A stretch of 45,809 bases of DNA from Planctomycetota bacterium (GTDB lineage Bacteria; Planctomycetota; Phycisphaerae; Sedimentisphaerales; Anaerobacaceae), in assembly GCA_025459125.1 (NCBI GenBank), contig JALORE010000010.1:1-45809 (forward strand). The letters run 5' to 3'. The translations under genes and the position numbers were made by a program. This document shows, in pieces, positions 1,903 to 45,809 of this stretch (position 1 is its first letter; each line of letters begins with the position of its first letter). The notes beneath the pieces were generated by a model. It worked only from the letters and a program-made list of their open reading frames with translations, did not search any database and was not told where the DNA came from.

Positions 1903-2034
1903 GGGTGGCAGCGGCAAGCGGAGCCGGGACGCCAAACGCGATTCATCGCGTCTGCAAACCCTCATCGGAGCGTGCCGATGGTGGCTGCGGCTGTCCCACG
2001 GGCCATCGGCAAGCTGCGCTTGCCGCTGCCACCC
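1903..2034. repeat. Dispersed palindromic repeat, copy 1 (perfect 18-bp arms)
   Basis: Perfect inverted arms (GGGTGGCAGCGGCAAGCG at 1903-1920 and its complement at 2017-2034) enclose 96 bp. The reverse complement of the right-hand 44 bases matches the start of the copy at 44928-45022 almost base for base, including CAGCTTGCCGATGGCCCGTG. The element lies in the gap 1719-2311, for which no gene is supported: open frames there overlap each other and resemble no family. The rest of the gap holds only GC-rich sequence. Confidence 0.75.
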
Positions 2035-6305: not shown

Positions 6306-6862
6306 CGAAGACCTTCCCTGGGAAAAAAGGGGCCCGACGCGATGGACTGCGTTGGGGGGCCCGATTACATTCCAGACACATGTGGTCGGCCCTTATCATA
6401 CCACAGTCTTCGCCCCTGGCAACCCCCTTCAGGCAATTTGCGCCAGGAATATGCAGGGCCCTGGTCGTGTGCTCATAAGAGCATCATCGTTGGTAGTGAC
6501 GCCGTCAGGCGTTGTCCTCAAGGGTTTGAAGTGTGAAGTATGACGTGTAAAGCAAGAACGCGGATGCCTCGGCGCCAGCGTTTTCCGTCTTAAAACTTCA
6601 GACTTGAAACTTCACACTACTTCTTCTATGCCCATACGGGCACACTACGAACCCAACCCTCGCCGCGTTCGCCGGAAATCCCGGCTTCGGGCGGTGCGGA
6701 ACCGCGCAAACGCGGGACTGCCCACAGGGTAGCCCACGCCGTCCACTCATCCATCCGCTGGCCCAAGCCGCGTTTCGGGGATTCCCCAGTCATCGTTCCC
6801 GATGACAACAGCGTAAGCTTCGTCGAAACCGCCCCCATTCGAGGAGGACCACGCGGCGACGA
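6306..6862. other. Intergenic stretch without a supported gene
   Basis: Between rho and the CPBP gene I see no convincing coding sequence. Around 6530-6615 there is a loose inverted repeat (AGTGTGAAGT on the left, ACTTCACACT on the right). A short minus-strand open frame at 6626-6838 resembles no protein and is rich in Arg, Gly and Trp, as expected of chance frames in GC-rich DNA. The rho promoter must lie at the left end. Confidence 0.4.
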
Positions 6863-10396: not shown

Positions 10397-10693
10397 GTGC
10401 CGGCCTGCTTCCTCAGGTGGGGGCGGGGCCGGGCAAACGCGGAGCATTGGGCGCCGATGTTCAGAATCTGTGGCCTGGCTTCGACAATCGGCGGGTTCGC
10501 GATGGCTTTCACCTGGCCTATTTGCGCCCCGTTCAGCATGGCCTACAGCGAGATGTCCGTGCTGCTGGGCGTACTGTCTCTTGGGACGGCCTGGACGCTC
10601 GCCCGCGGGTGGAGCCTGCTGCCGGTGCCCGAGGAGATCCGGCTGCCGTTTGAGATCAACGTTTCGAAGATCATCGAGATGTACACCAGATAG
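10397..10693 (+). pseudogene. Membrane-protein C-terminal fragment (possible remnant)
   Basis: From a GTG at 10397 the frame encodes 98 residues with two hydrophobic helices (FRICGLASTIGGFAMAFTWP and MSVLLGVLSLGTAWTLARGW) and a sensible amphipathic end (IRLPFEINVSKIIEMYTR). No ribosome-binding site precedes it, and the sequence just upstream (FVVPACFLRW) looks like part of another helix, so I read this as the tail of a larger membrane protein whose front is lost; a genuine small protein is the alternative. The 370-bp stretch 10025-10396 otherwise holds nothing recognisable. Confidence 0.35.
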
Positions 10694-10696
10694 TAG

Positions 10697-10780
10697 GCAG
10701 TTGAGAGTTGACAGTTGTCAGTGGATAGCCGGCGGTTGAAAGCATGCTGTGATCTGTCAACTGACAACTGACCACCTGCA
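10697..10780. repeat. CAGTTGACAG-type dispersed repeat, intergenic copy
   Basis: Dense direct and inverted copies of AGTTGACAGTTGTCAGT and GATCTGTCAACTGACAACTG. The 14-mer GATCTGTCAACTGA recurs exactly inside the neighbouring gene at 11233, linking this repeat to the in-frame insertion at 11146-11262. Confidence 0.7.
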
Positions 10781-11929
10781 TTACCAGCAGTGCACGCGTC
10801 CCTTGAGCGGCCGGCGCTGCTGTACGGCTTGCACCGCCAGGTCGCGATCGAAGCCGATCAGGTTGATGCCCCGGTCCACCGTGCTGCGCAACAGCACCTC
10901 CACGTTGTTCAGGCCCGGCTGGGTCGTGTTGATAGCATACAGGCCCGGCAATTGCGCCATTCTGCCGATCAGGTGGTCCCCGCGCCCGCAGAAATGAATC
11001 GCGCCACCCCCCAGTTCCTCAAGCAATCGCTGGTCGAAGGGCCGGATGAACTCGTCGTACATTGCGGGCGACAGGTTGGTCGCCGCATCATTCCGCACCA
11101 TGATCCGGCCGCGGTGCAGCATCGACCAGTGGACGGCGCAGGAAGTGGTCGGTTGGCAGTTGGCAGTTGTCCGTTGCGATCCCTCAGCCAACTGCGATCT
11201 GGGAACTGGCGACTGTGAGCTGCGGTTACTACGATCTGTCAACTGAGAGCTGTCAACTGTCATCTCCTCCCACCGCTTCATGAACCGGACGTAGGTCTCG
11301 GTGATCAGCGCCAGGAACTCCCGCACGAGATCGGGCTTGTCGTACAGATCGACATAGAGCGAGCTGCCCCACAGCATCTCGCACACGTTGATCGGCCCCT
11401 GCAGATCGGGATGGTAGAGATGGACATGCCGCCGGAGACGCGGATAGTCCGCCAACAGCCGCACGAAGTACCGCCCCATCTCAAACGTCCGGGCACCCTG
11501 GCCGGCGTCCCGATCAGGTATACCCTTCGCTACGACGCGTTTCACCGCCTCGGCGCCGCCGTCCAGGGGCCGGCAGGCAGGGAGCGTGTCGATCTCCCGG
11601 TCCATGAGGAACCGCTCGCCGCCGAAGAGCGAGGGCAGAATCCCGGTGCCATAATTGCAGCGGACTGCCAGCAGCGCCCCCGTACCTTCGGCCAGCGCGT
11701 TGGAGCATAGTTCCAACTGCTGCAGGGCCATCGCCTCGAAATCCTCGAGGGCATCGTTGACCAGCACGTGCGGCCACGCCACCGACGGCGGCGCCGGCTC
11801 GGGTCTTCGGGGTGAGAAGACCTCCTCCCGGCATCGGCCGTCGGCGAAAGCCCGCCACTCGTCCCACAAGTTCTCCTCGACCTCCGGCGTCAGCCGGCGC
11901 TCCAGATCTTCCAGGTAGTTCTCAATCAT
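10781..11929 (-). CDS. Uroporphyrinogen decarboxylase-like / corrinoid methyltransferase-like protein with repeat insertion
   Basis: A 382-residue member of the UroD superfamily (TIM barrel), in the branch of corrinoid- or CoM-type methyltransferase-like proteins common in planctomycetes rather than heme-pathway HemE. Landmarks are LAVRCNYGTGILPSLFG, LYHPDLQGPINVCEMLWG, KPDLVREFLALITETYVRFM, AVHWSMLHRGRIMVRND and GGGAIHFCGRGDHLIG, the last providing the His/Cys pair often involved in metal binding. Residues about 223-261 (Ser/Thr/Gln/Asn-rich, for example SSQLTDRSNRSSQSPVPRSQ) do not look like the family and are encoded by repeat DNA (11146-11262), inserted between helix MKRWEE and strand AVHWSM without breaking the frame. 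The start ATG at 11929 has no strong ribosome-binding site. The protein may still fold, since the insertion falls in a loop. Confidence 0.8.
   Translation of the reverse strand: MIENYLEDLERRLTPEVEENLWDEWRAFADGRCREEVFSPRRPEPAPPSVAWPHVLVNDALEDFEAMALQQLELCSNALAEGTGALLAVRCNYGTGILPSLFGGERFLMDREIDTLPACRPLDGGAEAVKRVVAKGIPDRDAGQGARTFEMGRYFVRLLADYPRLRRHVHLYHPDLQGPINVCEMLWGSSLYVDLYDKPDLVREFLALITETYVRFMKRWEEMTVDSSQLTDRSNRSSQSPVPRSQLAEGSQRTTANCQPTTSCAVHWSMLHRGRIMVRNDAATNLSPAMYDEFIRPFDQRLLEELGGGAIHFCGRGDHLIGRMAQLPGLYAINTTQPGLNNVEVLLRSTVDRGINLIGFDRDLAVQAVQQRRPLKGRVHCW
11146..11262. repeat. CAGTTGACAG-type repeat inserted in frame in the UroD-like gene
   Basis: About 117 bp made of CAGTTGGCAGTTG, GATCTGTCAACTGA and AGCTGTCAACTGTC units in both orientations, matching the intergenic repeat at 10697-10780 and unlike the flanking coding sequence. 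The length is near a multiple of three and contains no stop in the gene's frame. Confidence 0.7.
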
Positions 11930-12041
11930 TTGCCATTTATGAACTATGAGTTACGAATTATGATCCACTATAATCAGCCGCGGATATGATCGTGCAGACG
12001 TCGCGTGGGATCAACCCTAATCCGGAAGAAAGGAGGCGGTC

Positions 12042-19361: not shown

Positions 19362-20414
19362 ATGGATGAGATTCGAGTTATGATTGATGTGAATCGACAA
19401 GGTGAAGTGTGGGTGTTTGCCGAGCAGCATGGCGGGCGGCTGGAGGAGACGCCGCTGGAGCTGATGAGCAAGGCGCGGTATCTGGCCGATACGCTGCGGG
19501 TGCAACTGGCGGCCGTGCTCCTGGGCGACGGCGTCGCGAGCCTCGGCAGCAGACTGATCCAGCACGGGGCCGACAAGGTCTACCTCGTCGAGCATCCCTC
19601 TCTCGGGGCCTACCAGACCAACAGTTATGCCAAGGTCATCTTTGACCTGATCCATAAGCACAAGCCTCAGATCGTGCTCTACGGCGCGACCGTGTCGGGC
19701 CGGGACCTGGCGCCGCGGATCGCCAGCGCGGCCAAGGCGGGGCTGACCGCCGACTGCACCGATCTGCAGATCGGCGACCATACGACGGCAAAGGACGGGG
19801 CGGTTCACCAGAATCTCCTTTTCCAGATCCGGCCGGCCTTCGGCGGAAACATCATCGCGACGATCATCAACTACGACCGCTGGCCGCAGATGGCGACCGT
19901 CCGCGAGGGCGTGATGCCGATGCCCGAGGCGGACACGAAGCGTCGCGGCGAGATCGTCAAGGAGACGGTCAAGCTGGCCAATGGCGATTTGCCGCTGGAG
20001 ATCCTGGAGGAACACACCCGGCCGAAGAAAGTTGACCTCAAAGCGGCTCGCATCATTGTCGCCGGCGGCGCGGGGGTCGGCAGCCGGGACAACTTCAAGC
20101 TGATCTGGGACCTGGCCAATTGCCTGGGGGCAGCGCCCGCCGCAACGCGGGCGGCGGTCGATCTGGGCTTCATCGATCATGACCACCAGGTGGGCCAGAC
20201 CGGCACCACGGTCCGTCCCAGCCTGTACATCGCCATCGGTATCAGCGGCGCGATCCAGCACCAGGCGGGGATGACCCAGAGCCAGAAGATCGTGGCGATC
20301 AACAACGATCCGGACGCTCCCATCTTCCACGTCGCCCACTACAAAATCCTGGGCGACCTGAACGAGGTCGTGCCGCGGATGATCAAGGCGATCAAGGAAA
20401 AGGGAGTGAAGTGA
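19362..20414 (+). CDS. etfA: Electron transfer flavoprotein subunit alpha
   Basis: The 350-residue protein contains both EtfA domains. The N-terminal half reads WVFAEQHGGRLEETPLELMS, LGDGVASLGSRLIQHGADKV and YGATVSGRDLAPRIASAAKA, followed by LTADCTDL. The C-terminal FAD-binding half has IIVAGGAGVGSRDNF, the FAD loop GQTGTTVRPSLYIAIGISGA, IQHQAGMTQSQKIVAINNDP and ADAPIF-like DAPIFHVAHYKILGDL. With EtfB it passes electrons from the downstream acyl-CoA dehydrogenase to the quinone pool or another acceptor. The ATG at 19362 lacks a clear ribosome-binding site; a second ATG at 19380 is also plausible. The weak initiation region directly follows the inserted DNA, so the insertion may have removed the native signal. 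Confidence 0.95.
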   Translation: MDEIRVMIDVNRQGEVWVFAEQHGGRLEETPLELMSKARYLADTLRVQLAAVLLGDGVASLGSRLIQHGADKVYLVEHPSLGAYQTNSYAKVIFDLIHKHKPQIVLYGATVSGRDLAPRIASAAKAGLTADCTDLQIGDHTTAKDGAVHQNLLFQIRPAFGGNIIATIINYDRWPQMATVREGVMPMPEADTKRRGEIVKETVKLANGDLPLEILEEHTRPKKVDLKAARIIVAGGAGVGSRDNFKLIWDLANCLGAAPAATRAAVDLGFIDHDHQVGQTGTTVRPSLYIAIGISGAIQHQAGMTQSQKIVAINNDPDAPIFHVAHYKILGDLNEVVPRMIKAIKEKGVK

Positions 20415-20469
20415 TTTGTGATCATTGAGAATCATAAATCATAAATCGTAAATCATAATTGGGAACGGC

Positions 20470-38919: not shown

Positions 38920-38943
38920 CCTGACCACGCGAATCTCCGCAAA

Positions 38944-38987
38944 GTACTCAAGGTGCTGAAGTTTGTAGAGTTGAGCACCTTGAGCAC
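38944..38987 (+). terminator. Hairpin downstream of hisI
   Basis: GTACTCAAGGTGCT (38944-38957) pairs with AGCACCTTGAGCAC (38974-38987), 13 of 14 bases, 25 bp after the hisI stop. The loop contains GTTTGTAGAG. No clean T-run follows, and AGGTGCTCAA recurs at about 39680, so it may be a repeat rather than a dedicated terminator. Confidence 0.45.
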
Positions 38988-39127
38988 CTCAGAAGAAGGC
39001 GCAGGTCAACGAAGAACCCGCCTGTGCCTGCGTCCTGCCCTGTCCAACTGGCGCACAAGCTGCTTTGCATACAAGGCTTATGACAGGTTGCAACCCTGTG
39101 GTACTCCGTCCATCCTAAGCTGCCGTG

Positions 39128-39160
39128 TGGCATCGTCAAGGCTGCAGGCCTTGGCGATGG
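39128..39160. repeat. TGGCATCGTC family hairpin
   Basis: CATCGTCAAGGC (39131-39142) pairs with GCCTTGGCGATG (39148-39159) with one G-T mismatch around a 5-base loop. Its start matches the ends of the 100-bp palindrome at 3127-3226. Confidence 0.6.
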
Positions 39161-39178
39161 CGGACGGGCTAATCGCGT

Positions 39179-39232
39179 CGTAGATGCGCAAGGAAGACCG
39201 TAGATGCGCACGTTCTTCCTTGCACATCTACG
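39179..39232. repeat. GTAGATGCGCAAGGAAGA hairpin
   Basis: CGTAGATGCGCAAGGAAGA (39179-39197) is complementary to 39214-39232 in 18 of 19 positions. The loop contains a further direct copy of CGTAGATGCGCA. Confidence 0.65.
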
Positions 39233-39497
39233 GCGGATGTTGCGCGCCTACGGGTCTGGGCGGTCAAAACCGGAGGAGCCCTGTTTCTGGAGCCGAGCAA
39301 CTGCTTGTGAGCAGGAATCCTTCATGGCTCGTCCGGTTTTCGCGTACTTCGATGCCTTACCGGGTGAGCCGGGATTGTGTCACACGCCAAGGCGCCGGGA
39401 CGCAGGGTCCAAACACCCGGTGTGGTCCGAGCGCCACCCGGATGACCCCGACCACCCGGTCGAAAAGCGGGCGCGCGGTGCGGTTGCGGCGGCCGCC

Positions 39498-39631
39498 GGT
39501 GAAGATCGTCAAGTTCCAGCGTTGACGATCTTCACCCCGCAAAAACCCTGAAATCACGCGAAAAACGTGAAGATCGTCAAGATCGTCAACGTTTTACTAT
39601 GACGATCTTCAGGGCTTTGACGATCTTCAGG
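39498..39631. repeat. Cluster of GAAGATCGTCAA palindromes
   Basis: A 15-bp perfect stem (GGTGAAGATCGTCAA at 39498-39512; complement at 39522-39536) is followed by GTGAAGATCGTCAAGATCG from 39567 and two inverse copies TTTGACGATCTTCAGG-like at 39598-39631. The same motif forms the palindromes at 5042-5072 and 5109-5150. Confidence 0.7.
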
Positions 39632-39700
39632 AAACTGGACGATCTGGCGGTCTGACGGTGCCGCCACACTCAGGACCCAAGGTGCTCAACGTTTGTTCGG

Positions 39701-39795
39701 CTCATCCGGTTCAAGCGTACTTGCCGCCCCGGAAGGGCCCAACCCCCTGGAGGCAGAGCCCCCCAGAGTGAGTGAAGTACGCTCAAACCGGATGA
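39701..39795. repeat. CATCCGGTTTGAGCGTACTT inverted repeat
   Basis: TCATCCGGTTCAAGCGTACT at 39702 and the inverse TACGCTCAAACCGGATGA (39776-39793) form arms of about 21 bp with two mismatches. A third diverged copy (CGTCCGGTTTTCGCGTACTT) lies near 39328. The loop carries GGGCCCAACCCCCTGG and GGCAGAGCCCCCC, GC-rich pieces resembling the flanks of the 19011 element. The region 38920-39802 has no supported gene. Confidence 0.6.
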
Positions 39796-39802
39796 ACCTC
39801 TT

Positions 39803-42560: not shown

Positions 42561-42637
42561 TGTAGGATGGGCTTCAGCCCATGCGGCCGGCGCGTATACG
42601 AGCCCAACCATCCGCATGGACTGAAGCCCATCCTACA
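42561..42637. repeat. TGTAGGATGGGCTTCAGCCC inverted repeat
   Basis: Arms of 26 bp (42561-42586 and 42612-42637) match in complement at 25 positions; each arm contains the small palindrome GGGCTTCAGCCC or its variant. It lies in the 141-bp gap between the Tat protein and the first beta-helix gene. A related half-copy is at about 15303. Confidence 0.75.
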
Positions 42638-42677
42638 TCCATTCGTCCGCCCGAGTGACGTACGTGGAGGTAACGGA

Positions 42678-44783
42678 ATGGGCATGCAACGATCAACTCT
42701 CGTGCTCTTGGGCCTGGCCTTGACCGCCGTCGGGACATTGCCGATGCGTGCGGCGGCCGCGACGATCTACCTGGCGCCGGAGGGCAAGGACACCTGGTCC
42801 GGCGGTCTGGCTCGACCCAATGCCGCCGGCACCGACGGCCCCGTGGCCACCCTCGAACGCGCCCGTGACCTTCTGCGACAGAAAGGCGCGGACGCGGAGA
42901 AGCGGATCATCGTGGCCGACGGCCGGTACACCTTGACCGAGCCTCTGATCCTGACCCCTGAGGACAGCGGCCTCGCCGTTGAAGCGGCCCCGGGCGCCCG
43001 GCCGATCTTCTCCGGCGGCAGGGTCATCCGCGGCTTCCGCGCCGGCGACAATGGGCTCTGGGTGGCCCGCGTTCCGGAGGTGGCCGACGGCTCCCGGTAC
43101 TTCGATCAGTTGTTCGTCAACGGCCGACGCGCTACCCGGGCGCGCACGCCGAACAAGTTCTACTCCTACATGGGACCGACAGGAGAGGTGCCCATCGAGG
43201 GTAAGCCCGGCCAGTTCCTGCGGACGACGCATGTGCCCGCGCAGGTTCTGGCGCCCCTGAAAGGTCTGCAGGAAGCGGCAATCCGCGATGTCGTCCTCGT
43301 CGCCTACCACAAATGGTGCATCACGCGGAGATACCTCGGGCAAGTCAAGTTCGACACGAACCAAATCGTCACCACCGGCGAGAAGCTGGCCAGTTTCTCC
43401 AATTGGCCGGAAGGCACCCGCTTCCACCTGGAGAACTTCCCGGCCGCTCTGGACGAACCGGGCGAGTGGTTCCTCAGCCGCGACGGAACGCTTCTCTATA
43501 AGCCTCGGCCCGGTGAAGACATGGCCCAGGCCGAAGTCATCGCGCCCATGGTCACGAAGCTGCTGGCTATTGAGGGTCGGCCCGAGGCCGGCCAGTTTGT
43601 GACGGGCGTCAGACTCCAGGGGTTGACGTTCCGCCATCAGCAGCGCGTCCTGCCGGCAACCGGCTACGCTCCCTACCAGGCGGCCTTCGCCACCGACGCG
43701 GCGGTCACGGTTGACGGTGCCCACAACGTCGCGATCCTGGATTGTGAGATCGGGCACACGGCGGAGCATGCCTTATGGTTTCGCCAGGGCTGTCGGGAGT
43801 GTCGCATCGAGCGCAGCTACCTCCACGATCTCGGCGCCGGCGGCGTCCGCATCGGCGAAGGCCGGGCACGGCCGGATGAGAATTCCCACACGGATCACAT
43901 TACCGTGGATAACAACATCATCCGCAACGGTGGACGGATCTACCTGGACGCCGTTGGAGTCTGGATCGGCTGGAGCCCGGACAACGTTGTCACGCATAAC
44001 GACATCGCCGATTTCTTCTACACGGGCCTGTCCGTTGGCTGGCGTTGGGGTTATTCCGACAGTCTCGCCAAACGCAACAATCTCAGCTTCAACCGTGTAC
44101 ACCATCTCGGCTGGGCGGTCCTCAGCGACATGGGCGGCATCTACACCCTCGGGCCCTCCGAGGGGACGATCATCGGCAACAATGTCTTTCACGACATTTA
44201 CGCTTACTCCTACGGCGGCTGGGGCCTCTACACGGATGAGGGTAGCACCGGCATTGTGATGGAGAAGAACCTCGTCTACAACACCAAGACCGGCAGCTTC
44301 CACCAGCATTACGGCAAGGAAAACGTCATCCGCAATAACATCCTGGCCTTCAGCCAGCTCCATCAGATCCAGGCCACCCGGGTCGAGAAGCACCGGTCGT
44401 TTGCCTTCGAGAAGAACATCGTCTACTGGGACACCGGCGCGGTGCTCTCCGGACGGTGGAAGGAGATCGACATCCAGATGGACCGCAACTGCTACTGGAA
44501 CGCCGCCGGCGCACCGGTGAAGTTCCTGGACCTGTCGCTGGAACAATGGCGCGAACAGGAAGGCCATGACCAGACTTCTGTGGTCGCGGACCCCGGCTTC
44601 CTCGATCCCAAGAACCACGATTTCCGCCTGAAGCCGGACTCCCCGGCTCTGGCGCTCGGCTTCGAGCCCTTCGATTACACCCAGGCCGGCGTCTACGGCG
44701 ACCCCGCCTGGGGCGCCAAGGCGAAAGACGTGACCTACGCGCCCGTGGACTGGCCCCCGCAGGGCCCCAAGGGCGCACAGTGA
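42678..44783 (+). CDS. Secreted right-handed beta-helix protein (polysaccharide lyase-like), first of a tandem pair
   Basis: A 701-residue protein. ATG 42678 is seven bases after GGAGG; the frame continues upstream through the 42561-42637 repeat, which I exclude. Residues 1-28 are a signal peptide (STLVLLGLALTAVGTLPMRA). The mature start ATIYLAPEGKDTWSGGLARP, then GPVATLERARDLLRQKG, is the common DUF1565-type entry to parallel beta-helix proteins, followed by IIVADGRYTLTEPLILTPED. Residues about 390-620 show the coil repeats (VAILDCEIGHTAEHALWFRQ, NNIIRNGGRIYLDAVGVWIG, LSFNRVHHLGWAVLSDMGGI). The fold is shared by pectate lyases, alginate-type lyases and glycoside hydrolases; the substrate is unknown. 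A paralogue follows directly downstream. Confidence 0.9.
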   Translation: MGMQRSTLVLLGLALTAVGTLPMRAAAATIYLAPEGKDTWSGGLARPNAAGTDGPVATLERARDLLRQKGADAEKRIIVADGRYTLTEPLILTPEDSGLAVEAAPGARPIFSGGRVIRGFRAGDNGLWVARVPEVADGSRYFDQLFVNGRRATRARTPNKFYSYMGPTGEVPIEGKPGQFLRTTHVPAQVLAPLKGLQEAAIRDVVLVAYHKWCITRRYLGQVKFDTNQIVTTGEKLASFSNWPEGTRFHLENFPAALDEPGEWFLSRDGTLLYKPRPGEDMAQAEVIAPMVTKLLAIEGRPEAGQFVTGVRLQGLTFRHQQRVLPATGYAPYQAAFATDAAVTVDGAHNVAILDCEIGHTAEHALWFRQGCRECRIERSYLHDLGAGGVRIGEGRARPDENSHTDHITVDNNIIRNGGRIYLDAVGVWIGWSPDNVVTHNDIADFFYTGLSVGWRWGYSDSLAKRNNLSFNRVHHLGWAVLSDMGGIYTLGPSEGTIIGNNVFHDIYAYSYGGWGLYTDEGSTGIVMEKNLVYNTKTGSFHQHYGKENVIRNNILAFSQLHQIQATRVEKHRSFAFEKNIVYWDTGAVLSGRWKEIDIQMDRNCYWNAAGAPVKFLDLSLEQWREQEGHDQTSVVADPGFLDPKNHDFRLKPDSPALALGFEPFDYTQAGVYGDPAWGAKAKDVTYAPVDWPPQGPKGAQ

Positions 44784-44884: not shown

Positions 44885-45809
44885 GTGAGAGAATACAGAT
44901 GCAGTCTGTCGGCTGCTCCAAAATCGCGGGTGGCAGCGGCAAGCGCCAGCTTGCCGATGGCCCGTGGGACAGATGCAAACGCCAGCGGCAAGCTCCGAAG
45001 ACCCCGCTTGCCGCTGCCGCCCCAGTTTCTCACCCTTGCAGGGCTGGTGACGCACACCCTGCCGCTCCTGCTGGCGACGGTATGCGGGTTCTCGCTGCGG
45101 GCCGGGGCCATGACGCTTTATGTGTCGCCCGCGGGCAACGACGCGTGGTCCGGCCGATCCGCGCAACCCAACGCCGGGCGAACGGATGGCCCCGTGGCAA
45201 CCCTGGAGCGGGCACGCGACATTCTGCGCCAGAGTAGAGGCGGCGGTGAGCTGCGCGAGCCGGCGCGGGTCGTCGTGGCCGACGGGACCTACACGCTGAC
45301 GACGCCATTTGTCCTGACGCCGCAGGATAGTGGTACGGAACGATCGTCCGTCGTCTACGAAGCGGCTCCCGGCACGCGGCCGGTATTCACCGGCGGAAGG
45401 ACCATCACCGGCTTTGCGCCGACCCCGGACGGTGCCTGGAAGGTCCGCGTCCCGGAAGTCGCCGCGGGGCAATGGTACTTTGAGCAGCTCTTCGTGAACG
45501 GCCGCCGGGCGGTGCGGGCCCGTACGCCCAACAAGTTCTATCACTACATGCTCAATGTGGAGGAGGAAGTCCTCGAGCAGGGCCGTGGTCAGAGAGCGCT
45601 CCGGGCTCGGCAGACCGTGACCGTCGGGCCCGAAGATCTCATGCCCCTGCGGCAACTGAGCGATCCGGAGTTGCACGACGTCCAAATGGTCATCTATCAC
45701 AAGTGGGACAACACGACCCGCTTCATCGAGGCCATCGACGGGTCGAGTTCCACGATCATAACGACCGGCGAAGGCCGCAAGTCCTGGAACTCCTGGGGCA
45801 AAGGCGATC
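44885..45809 (+). CDS. Secreted beta-helix protein, second of the pair, 3' partial, repeat in the leader
   Basis: The gene runs off the right edge. The start chosen is GTG 44885, seven bases after AAGGAG. After about 14 residues the reading frame crosses the palindromic repeat at 44928-45022 (encoding VAAASASLPMARGTDANASG-like text), then gives a signal-like hydrophobic stretch (FLTLAGLVTHTLPLLLATVC) and the mature protein TLYVSPAGNDAWSGRSAQPN, GPVATLERARDILRQSRGGG, VVVADGTYTLTTPFVLTPQD and EQLFVNGRRAVRARTPNKFY, which match the upstream beta-helix gene block by block. The signal sequence would begin about 45 residues from the start, unusually deep. Alternative starts after the repeat (TTG 45008, GTG 45047, ATG 45110) lack a ribosome-binding site or a complete signal. 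Confidence 0.8.
   Translation, partial: MREYRCSLSAAPKSRVAAASASLPMARGTDANASGKLRRPRLPLPPQFLTLAGLVTHTLPLLLATVCGFSLRAGAMTLYVSPAGNDAWSGRSAQPNAGRTDGPVATLERARDILRQSRGGGELREPARVVVADGTYTLTTPFVLTPQDSGTERSSVVYEAAPGTRPVFTGGRTITGFAPTPDGAWKVRVPEVAAGQWYFEQLFVNGRRAVRARTPNKFYHYMLNVEEEVLEQGRGQRALRARQTVTVGPEDLMPLRQLSDPELHDVQMVIYHKWDNTTRFIEAIDGSSSTIITTGEGRKSWNSWGKGD
44928..45022. repeat. Dispersed palindromic repeat, copy 2, inside a coding region
   Basis: Arms GGGTGGCAGCGGCAAGCG (44928-44945) and complement at 45005-45022 differ at one base. The first 44 bases match the inverse of copy 1 (1903-2034) with a single indel, but copy 2 is shorter (95 against 132 bp). It lies in frame within the leader of the beta-helix gene starting at 44885. 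Confidence 0.75.

Follow-up and report, generated by a model that had tools for sequence, protein, structure and literature searches.

The question raised by this locus is how a UroD-like enzyme came to contain, within its reading frame, DNA that resembles a repeat lying between genes nearby. The gene was found in a 45,809-nt stretch of a planctomycete genome (the whole stretch is referred to here as the window, and its genome as G000), on the reverse strand at 10784..11929, as an open reading frame of 382 codons with a match to Pfam PF01208 (E 1.8e-6). Full-length orthologues at 66–68% were identified in three genomes of the same genus. Our preferred reading, to which we assign a probability of about 0.72, is that palindromic, often heptamer-built repeats colonise insertion-tolerant loops and get rewritten there, and that only the in-frame, stop-free versions survive.

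The insert, together with remnants of the native linker, spanned 11141..11263 on the reverse strand (residues ~223–263), as delimited by lag-7 and hairpin tests and by linker comparison, and this agreed to within a few bases with the original prediction (11146–11262, residues 223–261). It is composed of degenerate CAGTTGA/CAACTGA heptamers forming two arms of opposite orientation. Both are given here on the gene strand: the 5' part (11182..11263) was read from the sequence as ~11 degenerate heptamers ending in CAG (ATGACAG, TTGACAG, CTCTCAG, TTGACAG and so on), and the 3' arm (11141..11176), recognised by its inverted-partner score, as CAACGGA, CAACTGC, CAACTGC, CAACCGA and CCACTTC. Over its best 21 nt the insert had 81% matches at lag 7, and none of the remaining lags tested (4 to 10) exceeded 43%. 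Its score was reached by 0 of 200 shuffles, which in all period-7 tests preserved base composition only. The lag-7 segment (11140–11215) overlapped the inner portion of the 5' part, and segment 11141–11179 had an inverted-partner score of 13 versus at most 10 in 40 controls. A different heptamer family, TTATGAACTATGAGTTACGAATTATGA, was read as a short stretch on the forward strand at the 5' end of the same gene (11923..11965).

Comparison with homologues from outside the genus indicated how short the native linker is. The stretch from W220 to H267, which in the window protein is 46 residues long and rich in Ser, Thr and Gln, was a linker of 12 residues without an insert in both L044 and G053. 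The L044 protein (348 aa) was 54% identical to the window protein over the aligned residues, a net gain of 34 residues for the latter (382 versus 348 aa), and the G053 homologue was ~48% identical in the flanks. The flanks had been predicted to be contiguous in relatives; the insert was indeed absent from these two homologues, but strict contiguity did not hold, as the 12 residues lie between the flanks. With the lag-7 and inverted-partner tests, this linker supported the proposal of an in-frame insertion stemming from a repeat family resident in the genome: the UroD insert is in frame, is made up of heptamers, and is absent from the out-of-genus homologues.

Within the genus, an insert was present in all four of the other orthologues that covered the site (G001, G003, G005, and G007). 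The linker residues numbered 46 in the window's genome, 37 in G001, 28 in G007, 28 in G005 and 43 in G003, and the inserts of all five congeners were significantly period-7 in the shuffle test. Those of G001, G007, G005 and G003 were mostly of other heptamers (CGCATGA, CGAGCGA, and GACGTCA). The UroD flanks of G001 and G007 were 89% identical in DNA and 91% identical in residues, yet their loops were almost wholly unlike. From the 12-residue linkers outside the genus, the variable congeners and this G001/G007 contrast, it follows that the native linker is short, that the site is occupied within the genus and that its content turns over. Since every covered congener was occupied, the first insertion was probably older than this species and the present sequence was probably rewritten later.

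The original prediction also held that the insert shares DNA with an intergenic repeat. This was borne out by GATCTGTCAACTGA, an exact match common to 10751–10764, between genes, and to 11233–11246, in the insert. The intergenic copy (10692..10780), recovered by an inverted-repeat search and by RNA fold, is a hairpin of the same heptamer family with 29-nt arms and a 25-nt spacer, and had an inverted-partner score of 15 versus 11 in controls. A search of nine congeneric genomes with the window insert, of the kind proposed with the prediction, returned only short or diverged matches and no near-identical copy, the best being 74% over about 75 nt in G003; at the level of families, arrays were found in other genes. 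The absence of a full-length copy indicated that what the genome shares is heptamer families and not copies of one element. It counts against our preferred reading, in that transposition of whole copies would be no more than a candidate route. The window insert is made of degenerate heptamers arrayed in inverted arms and does not replicate the intergenic element beside the gene.

Heptamer arrays proved to be frequent well beyond this gene. We scanned sampled stretches that added up to 481 kb in G000, among them the window, and to 352 kb in G005, with genes called by a simple script. In the G000 sample lag-7 arrays far outnumbered those at other lags, and in the G005 sample lag 9 was about as frequent as lag 7; relative to Markov simulations there were 25 lag-7 arrays versus 1–3 in G000 and 11 versus 0–2 in G005. 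Although the samples were 83–87% coding, most arrays lay between genes or overlapped gene ends, and 32 of the 44 had an inverted partner scoring above all 40 controls. Several heptamer families were present in each sampled genome. In the window these include AATCATAAATCATAAATCGTA, found between genes by the lag-7 scan (20411..20469), and an inverted repeat resembling the GAAGTGT/ACACTTC family, found by the inverted-repeat search (6530..6618; no gene was called in 6306–6862).

The family of the UroD insert agreed with the genome's own pattern counts in G000, G001 and G005. The ACGCA type occurred at four places in G001, including the UroD insert, and at none in G000, G003, G005 or G007; its reversed-pattern control was uninformative, the pattern being identical when read backwards. 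The ACGAG type, absent from G000, had nine matches in G005, and the sole ACGAG triple of G007 was its UroD insert. The CAACT type matched five times in G000 and not at all in G005, and here only zero versus non-zero contrasts between genomes were used, because the reversed control matched as often across the genus, being itself a heptamer motif (TCAAC). In a scan of the phylum, ACGAG triples were present in 40 of 294 genomes, a result that says only that arrays occur widely and patchily, since the reversed-letter control also matched in some. Two genomes in that scan from outside the window's class, G071 and G203, stood out by the very high number of their ACGAG triples (127 and 153, respectively) and may be richer model genomes.

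Comparable in-frame inserts were found at one loop each in four further proteins, which, from sequence motifs, we take to be RlmN, PstS, MalQ and an anti-sigma-like protein. In-frame heptamer arrays were also present in two presumed sigma-factor-like proteins and one presumed HemW-like protein. With the arrays across the genome, these inserts bore out the suggestion of a general process in place of an accident. RlmN had heptamer inserts in G001, G004, and G006, and in G015 of another genus, and a native loop in G000, G002 and G008. PstS inserts were present in G006 and G005 and, in shorter form, in G001, and were absent from G000, G002 and G008. In MalQ there was a GGATTGC hairpin insert in G008; the loops of G002 and G003 were longer and diverged, and those of five congeners and of the outgroups were native. 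The anti-sigma-like loop had heptamers in G000 and G003 and other, non-heptamer hairpins in G006 and G002. Inserts picked by homology, with no regard to heptamer content, were heptameric (0–1 of 200 shuffles each) in UroD of G001, G003, G005 and G007, RlmN of G004, G006 and G015, PstS of G005 and the anti-sigma-like protein of G003. Loci L131, L135, L136 and L137 were selected by their match to heptamer patterns, and so show existence, not frequency.

Both the recurrence of inserts of different sequence at the one UroD site and the inserts in several enzymes are direct observations. In a species tree of four proteins, G001, G004, G005, G006 and G007 stood apart from G000, G002, G003 and G008; the RlmN and PstS inserts are consistent with acquisition in the first of these groups, that of MalQ with acquisition inside the second. 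The RlmN insert of G001 was a mosaic of a CTCGTCG array joined to an ACTTGAA array. Separately, we noted L140:1491-1629 and L148:1432-1696, each pieced together from several heptamer families. L140 contains a REP-like piece too, and such composition suggests growth of element within element. The mosaic arms at these three places suggest that occupied loops take up further elements or are rewritten. Other arrays were observed at gene margins: a CTCGTCG array at a gene end (L054:6852-6897), an array supplying the N-terminus of a PyrD-like protein in G000 (L034:19200-19248) and one just before a prepilin-type FTLIELLVVI motif in G005 (L050:13130-13175), in the last two of which the start site may be misjudged.

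The properties of heptamers may help to explain the survival of inserts in genes. Every heptamer tested gave identical residues in all three frames: as 7 and 3 have no common factor, any frame of a pure heptamer array is translated into the same seven residues, so that a given strand is open in all three frames or closed in all three. Open frames numbered 2–6 in the elements within ORFs and 0–3 in the intergenic ones, among elements that were hand-picked, partly by heptamer family. The higher number in genes supports a filter, whereby elements arise or land anywhere and those that keep the frame, lack stops and fall in tolerant loops persist.

We propose that the genus carries many families of palindromic repeats of ~70–130 nt, mostly degenerate 7-nt units in two inverted arms. 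These would build up mainly between genes, yet could insert or grow within genes too, where the survivors would be those that kept the frame, contained no stops and lay in a loop the protein could extend. Such an occupied loop may then serve as a tolerated landing pad, to be rewritten by expansion, by replacement of an arm or by a second element, and rewriting after the first occupation would leave a species-specific insert at one common place. Slippage and template switching in hairpins would be our preferred source of the heptamers and route of their movement or growth, and the REP-like type may depend on Y1/RAYT transposases. An AlphaFold2 model of the window protein with one relative was too poor for use (mean pLDDT 37), and the surface position of the UroD loop was therefore judged from its variability; a profile search of solved structures with the UroD-like protein gave no match at E 0.01. 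Insert-bearing loops presumably lie at the protein surface, and the inserts would be functionally near neutral. A bolder version, which we consider rather unlikely, is that heptamer hairpins are a separate class of element produced or renewed by a dedicated process stepping in 7 nt (an enzyme or a polymerase mode), with new families in each lineage and frame-neutral units that would be a continual source of new protein loops.

Of the alternatives, a single ancient insertion in the ancestor of the genus is the one that we regard as a real, if lesser, possibility. The insert would since have only drifted, its heptamer look would stem from local slippage, and there would have been no new insertions. 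The occupation of every covered congeneric UroD orthologue is consistent with this, as are the weak similarity of the G007 and G005 UroD loops (z 4.4), the outer heptamers common to the PstS inserts of G005 and G006 and the CTCGTCG left arm common to the RlmN inserts of G001, G004 and G006, whose right parts were unlike. It accounts poorly for the G001/G007 loops between closely matching flanks, and for the fit of the heptamer family to the genome's own in G001, G005 and G000. It also does not explain non-heptamer hairpins at the same place: in G005, a relative of G001, G004 and G006, the RlmN loop is a REP-like hairpin. This hairpin and the anti-sigma element of G006 (for the pair, TAGTGTGCCCGTAAGGGCAT...) resemble the REP class, and the anti-sigma-like loop of G002 holds another hairpin.

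Retention of the elements as RNA hairpins acting in mRNA stability, attenuation or as RNase sites, the coding inserts then being regulatory, seems to us quite unlikely. The intergenic hairpin at 10692–10780 (z -3.46 and -3.32) and the G001 UroD insert (z -4.1) did fold far better than shuffles, and the majority of arrays are intergenic or over gene ends. The fold of the window insert, by contrast, was ordinary (z 0.02 for the gene strand and -1.41 for its complement), no significant inverted partner was found for the UroD insert of G007 or the RlmN inserts of G001, G004 and G006, and the host genes belong to unrelated pathways. The ordinary fold and the missing partners count against our preferred reading as well, as does the absence of heptamer arrays near the four best Y1-transposase loci. 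An Rfam search around the UroD-like gene returned no match.

A native, functional, fast-evolving loop, for example a binding surface, with an incidental repeat look, is largely refuted, even though the UroD site is filled in each covered congener. Such a loop should be conserved in length among homologues, and this one is not (12 versus 28–46 residues). The alignment of orthologues put forward for recognising a native loop, by an insert of the same length and unrelated sequence, gave instead inserts of varying length, heptameric and mostly of differing families, and none outside the genus. Period 7 was significant in all five congeneric inserts, the same repeat families are intergenic in the same genomes, and comparable inserts occur in unrelated enzymes. 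An assembly or binning artefact has a negligible chance of being the cause: the majority of the genomes are fragmented drafts, but different inserts occupied one codon position in independent genomes, always in frame, and G000 and G005 are of high completeness and low contamination.

Repeats of other kinds were also present. Of hairpins with a GTAG-type tag and arms of at least 10 nt, one was present in the 481 kb of G000 and none in the G005 sample. A near-perfect palindrome with 26-nt arms, TGTAGGATGGGCTTCAGCCCATGCGG, at 42561–42637 lies over the start of a called gene (42567–44783) and is GTAG-REP-like. The palindrome pair GGGTGGCAGCGGCAAGCG had two copies in the window (1903–2034 and 44928–45022), and a similar hairpin was found no more than about 1 kb from G000's best Y1 match (L187, 2564–2597); given this proximity, it may be the REP of that transposase. 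The region 38920–39802, with no called gene, was dense in inverted repeats (39176–39252, 39500–39628, and 39699–39798).

With these findings, palindromic repeats inside genes, of which Rickettsia is the best-known host, are extended to large-genome bacteria. Their build is new, with 7-nt units that read alike in every frame and different elements at one loop in close relatives. The creation of new protein segments by repeat insertion thereby becomes testable with ordinary enzymes (RlmN and MalQ). The findings are also a warning that what looks like functional sequence in a predicted protein loop may, in these genomes, be repeat DNA.

The combination of heptamer palindromes, in-gene position and turnover at a site was not found in the literature searched, which covered few subscription papers; several known systems share parts of it, and in behaviour the Rickettsia elements and intragenic REPs come nearest. 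The Rickettsia palindromic elements (RPE) were reportedly described by Ogata et al. in 2000. They are ~100–150 bp long, occur between genes and in frame in unrelated conserved genes, and are considered to have next to no effect on the protein (PMC10969869, PMC2229807). As with RPE, the palindromic elements described here are dispersed over genic and intergenic sites and are inserted in frame in conserved genes that have insert-free homologues. They differ in that RPE families have a consensus over the whole element, whereas the heptamer elements share 7-nt units only; a genome has many such families, related species hold different elements at one and the same site, and the hosts of the two are unrelated. 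Perfect inverted repeats of up to 284 bp inside protein-coding genes of nematomorph mitochondria (PMC6649704) are likewise in-gene, but mitochondrial, and the accessible part of that paper mentions no heptamer units. MITEs are marked by terminal inverted repeats and a target-site duplication. Inverted arms were observed here; at the window insert no target-site duplication was seen by eye, and no empty site was close enough for comparison.

The tandem 7-nt period, dominant in G000 and inside the insert, is shared with the TAACTGA heptanucleotide arrays, which are mostly intergenic, with a small number of sets within ORFs, chiefly near the ends of proteins (MacGregor 2015, PMC4679880, which also cites Mrazek 2007 on long simple sequence repeats). 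Those arrays are direct and of one heptamer, whereas here the arms are inverted and degenerate, the families many and the inserts mid-enzyme. GTAG/CGTC-tagged REPs are short palindromes that in some cases lie inside genes, where their presence in loops has been proposed to be neutral (Di Nocera et al. 2013, PMC3733652). A GTAG REP has a terminal tag and a perfect short stem; the window insert is a heptamer array without a terminal GTAG tag, and this reading of it was rejected for that reason. Y1 transposases are present in the window's genome (12 Y1_Tnp matches), as would suit such REPs, but at the four best Y1 loci no heptamer array lay near the gene, unlike the association of GTAG REPs with a RAYT gene. 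The recB genes of two Xanthomonas species have different REPs at about the same site (PMC3733652), and they are a precedent for recurrence at one site, as in the UroD loop.
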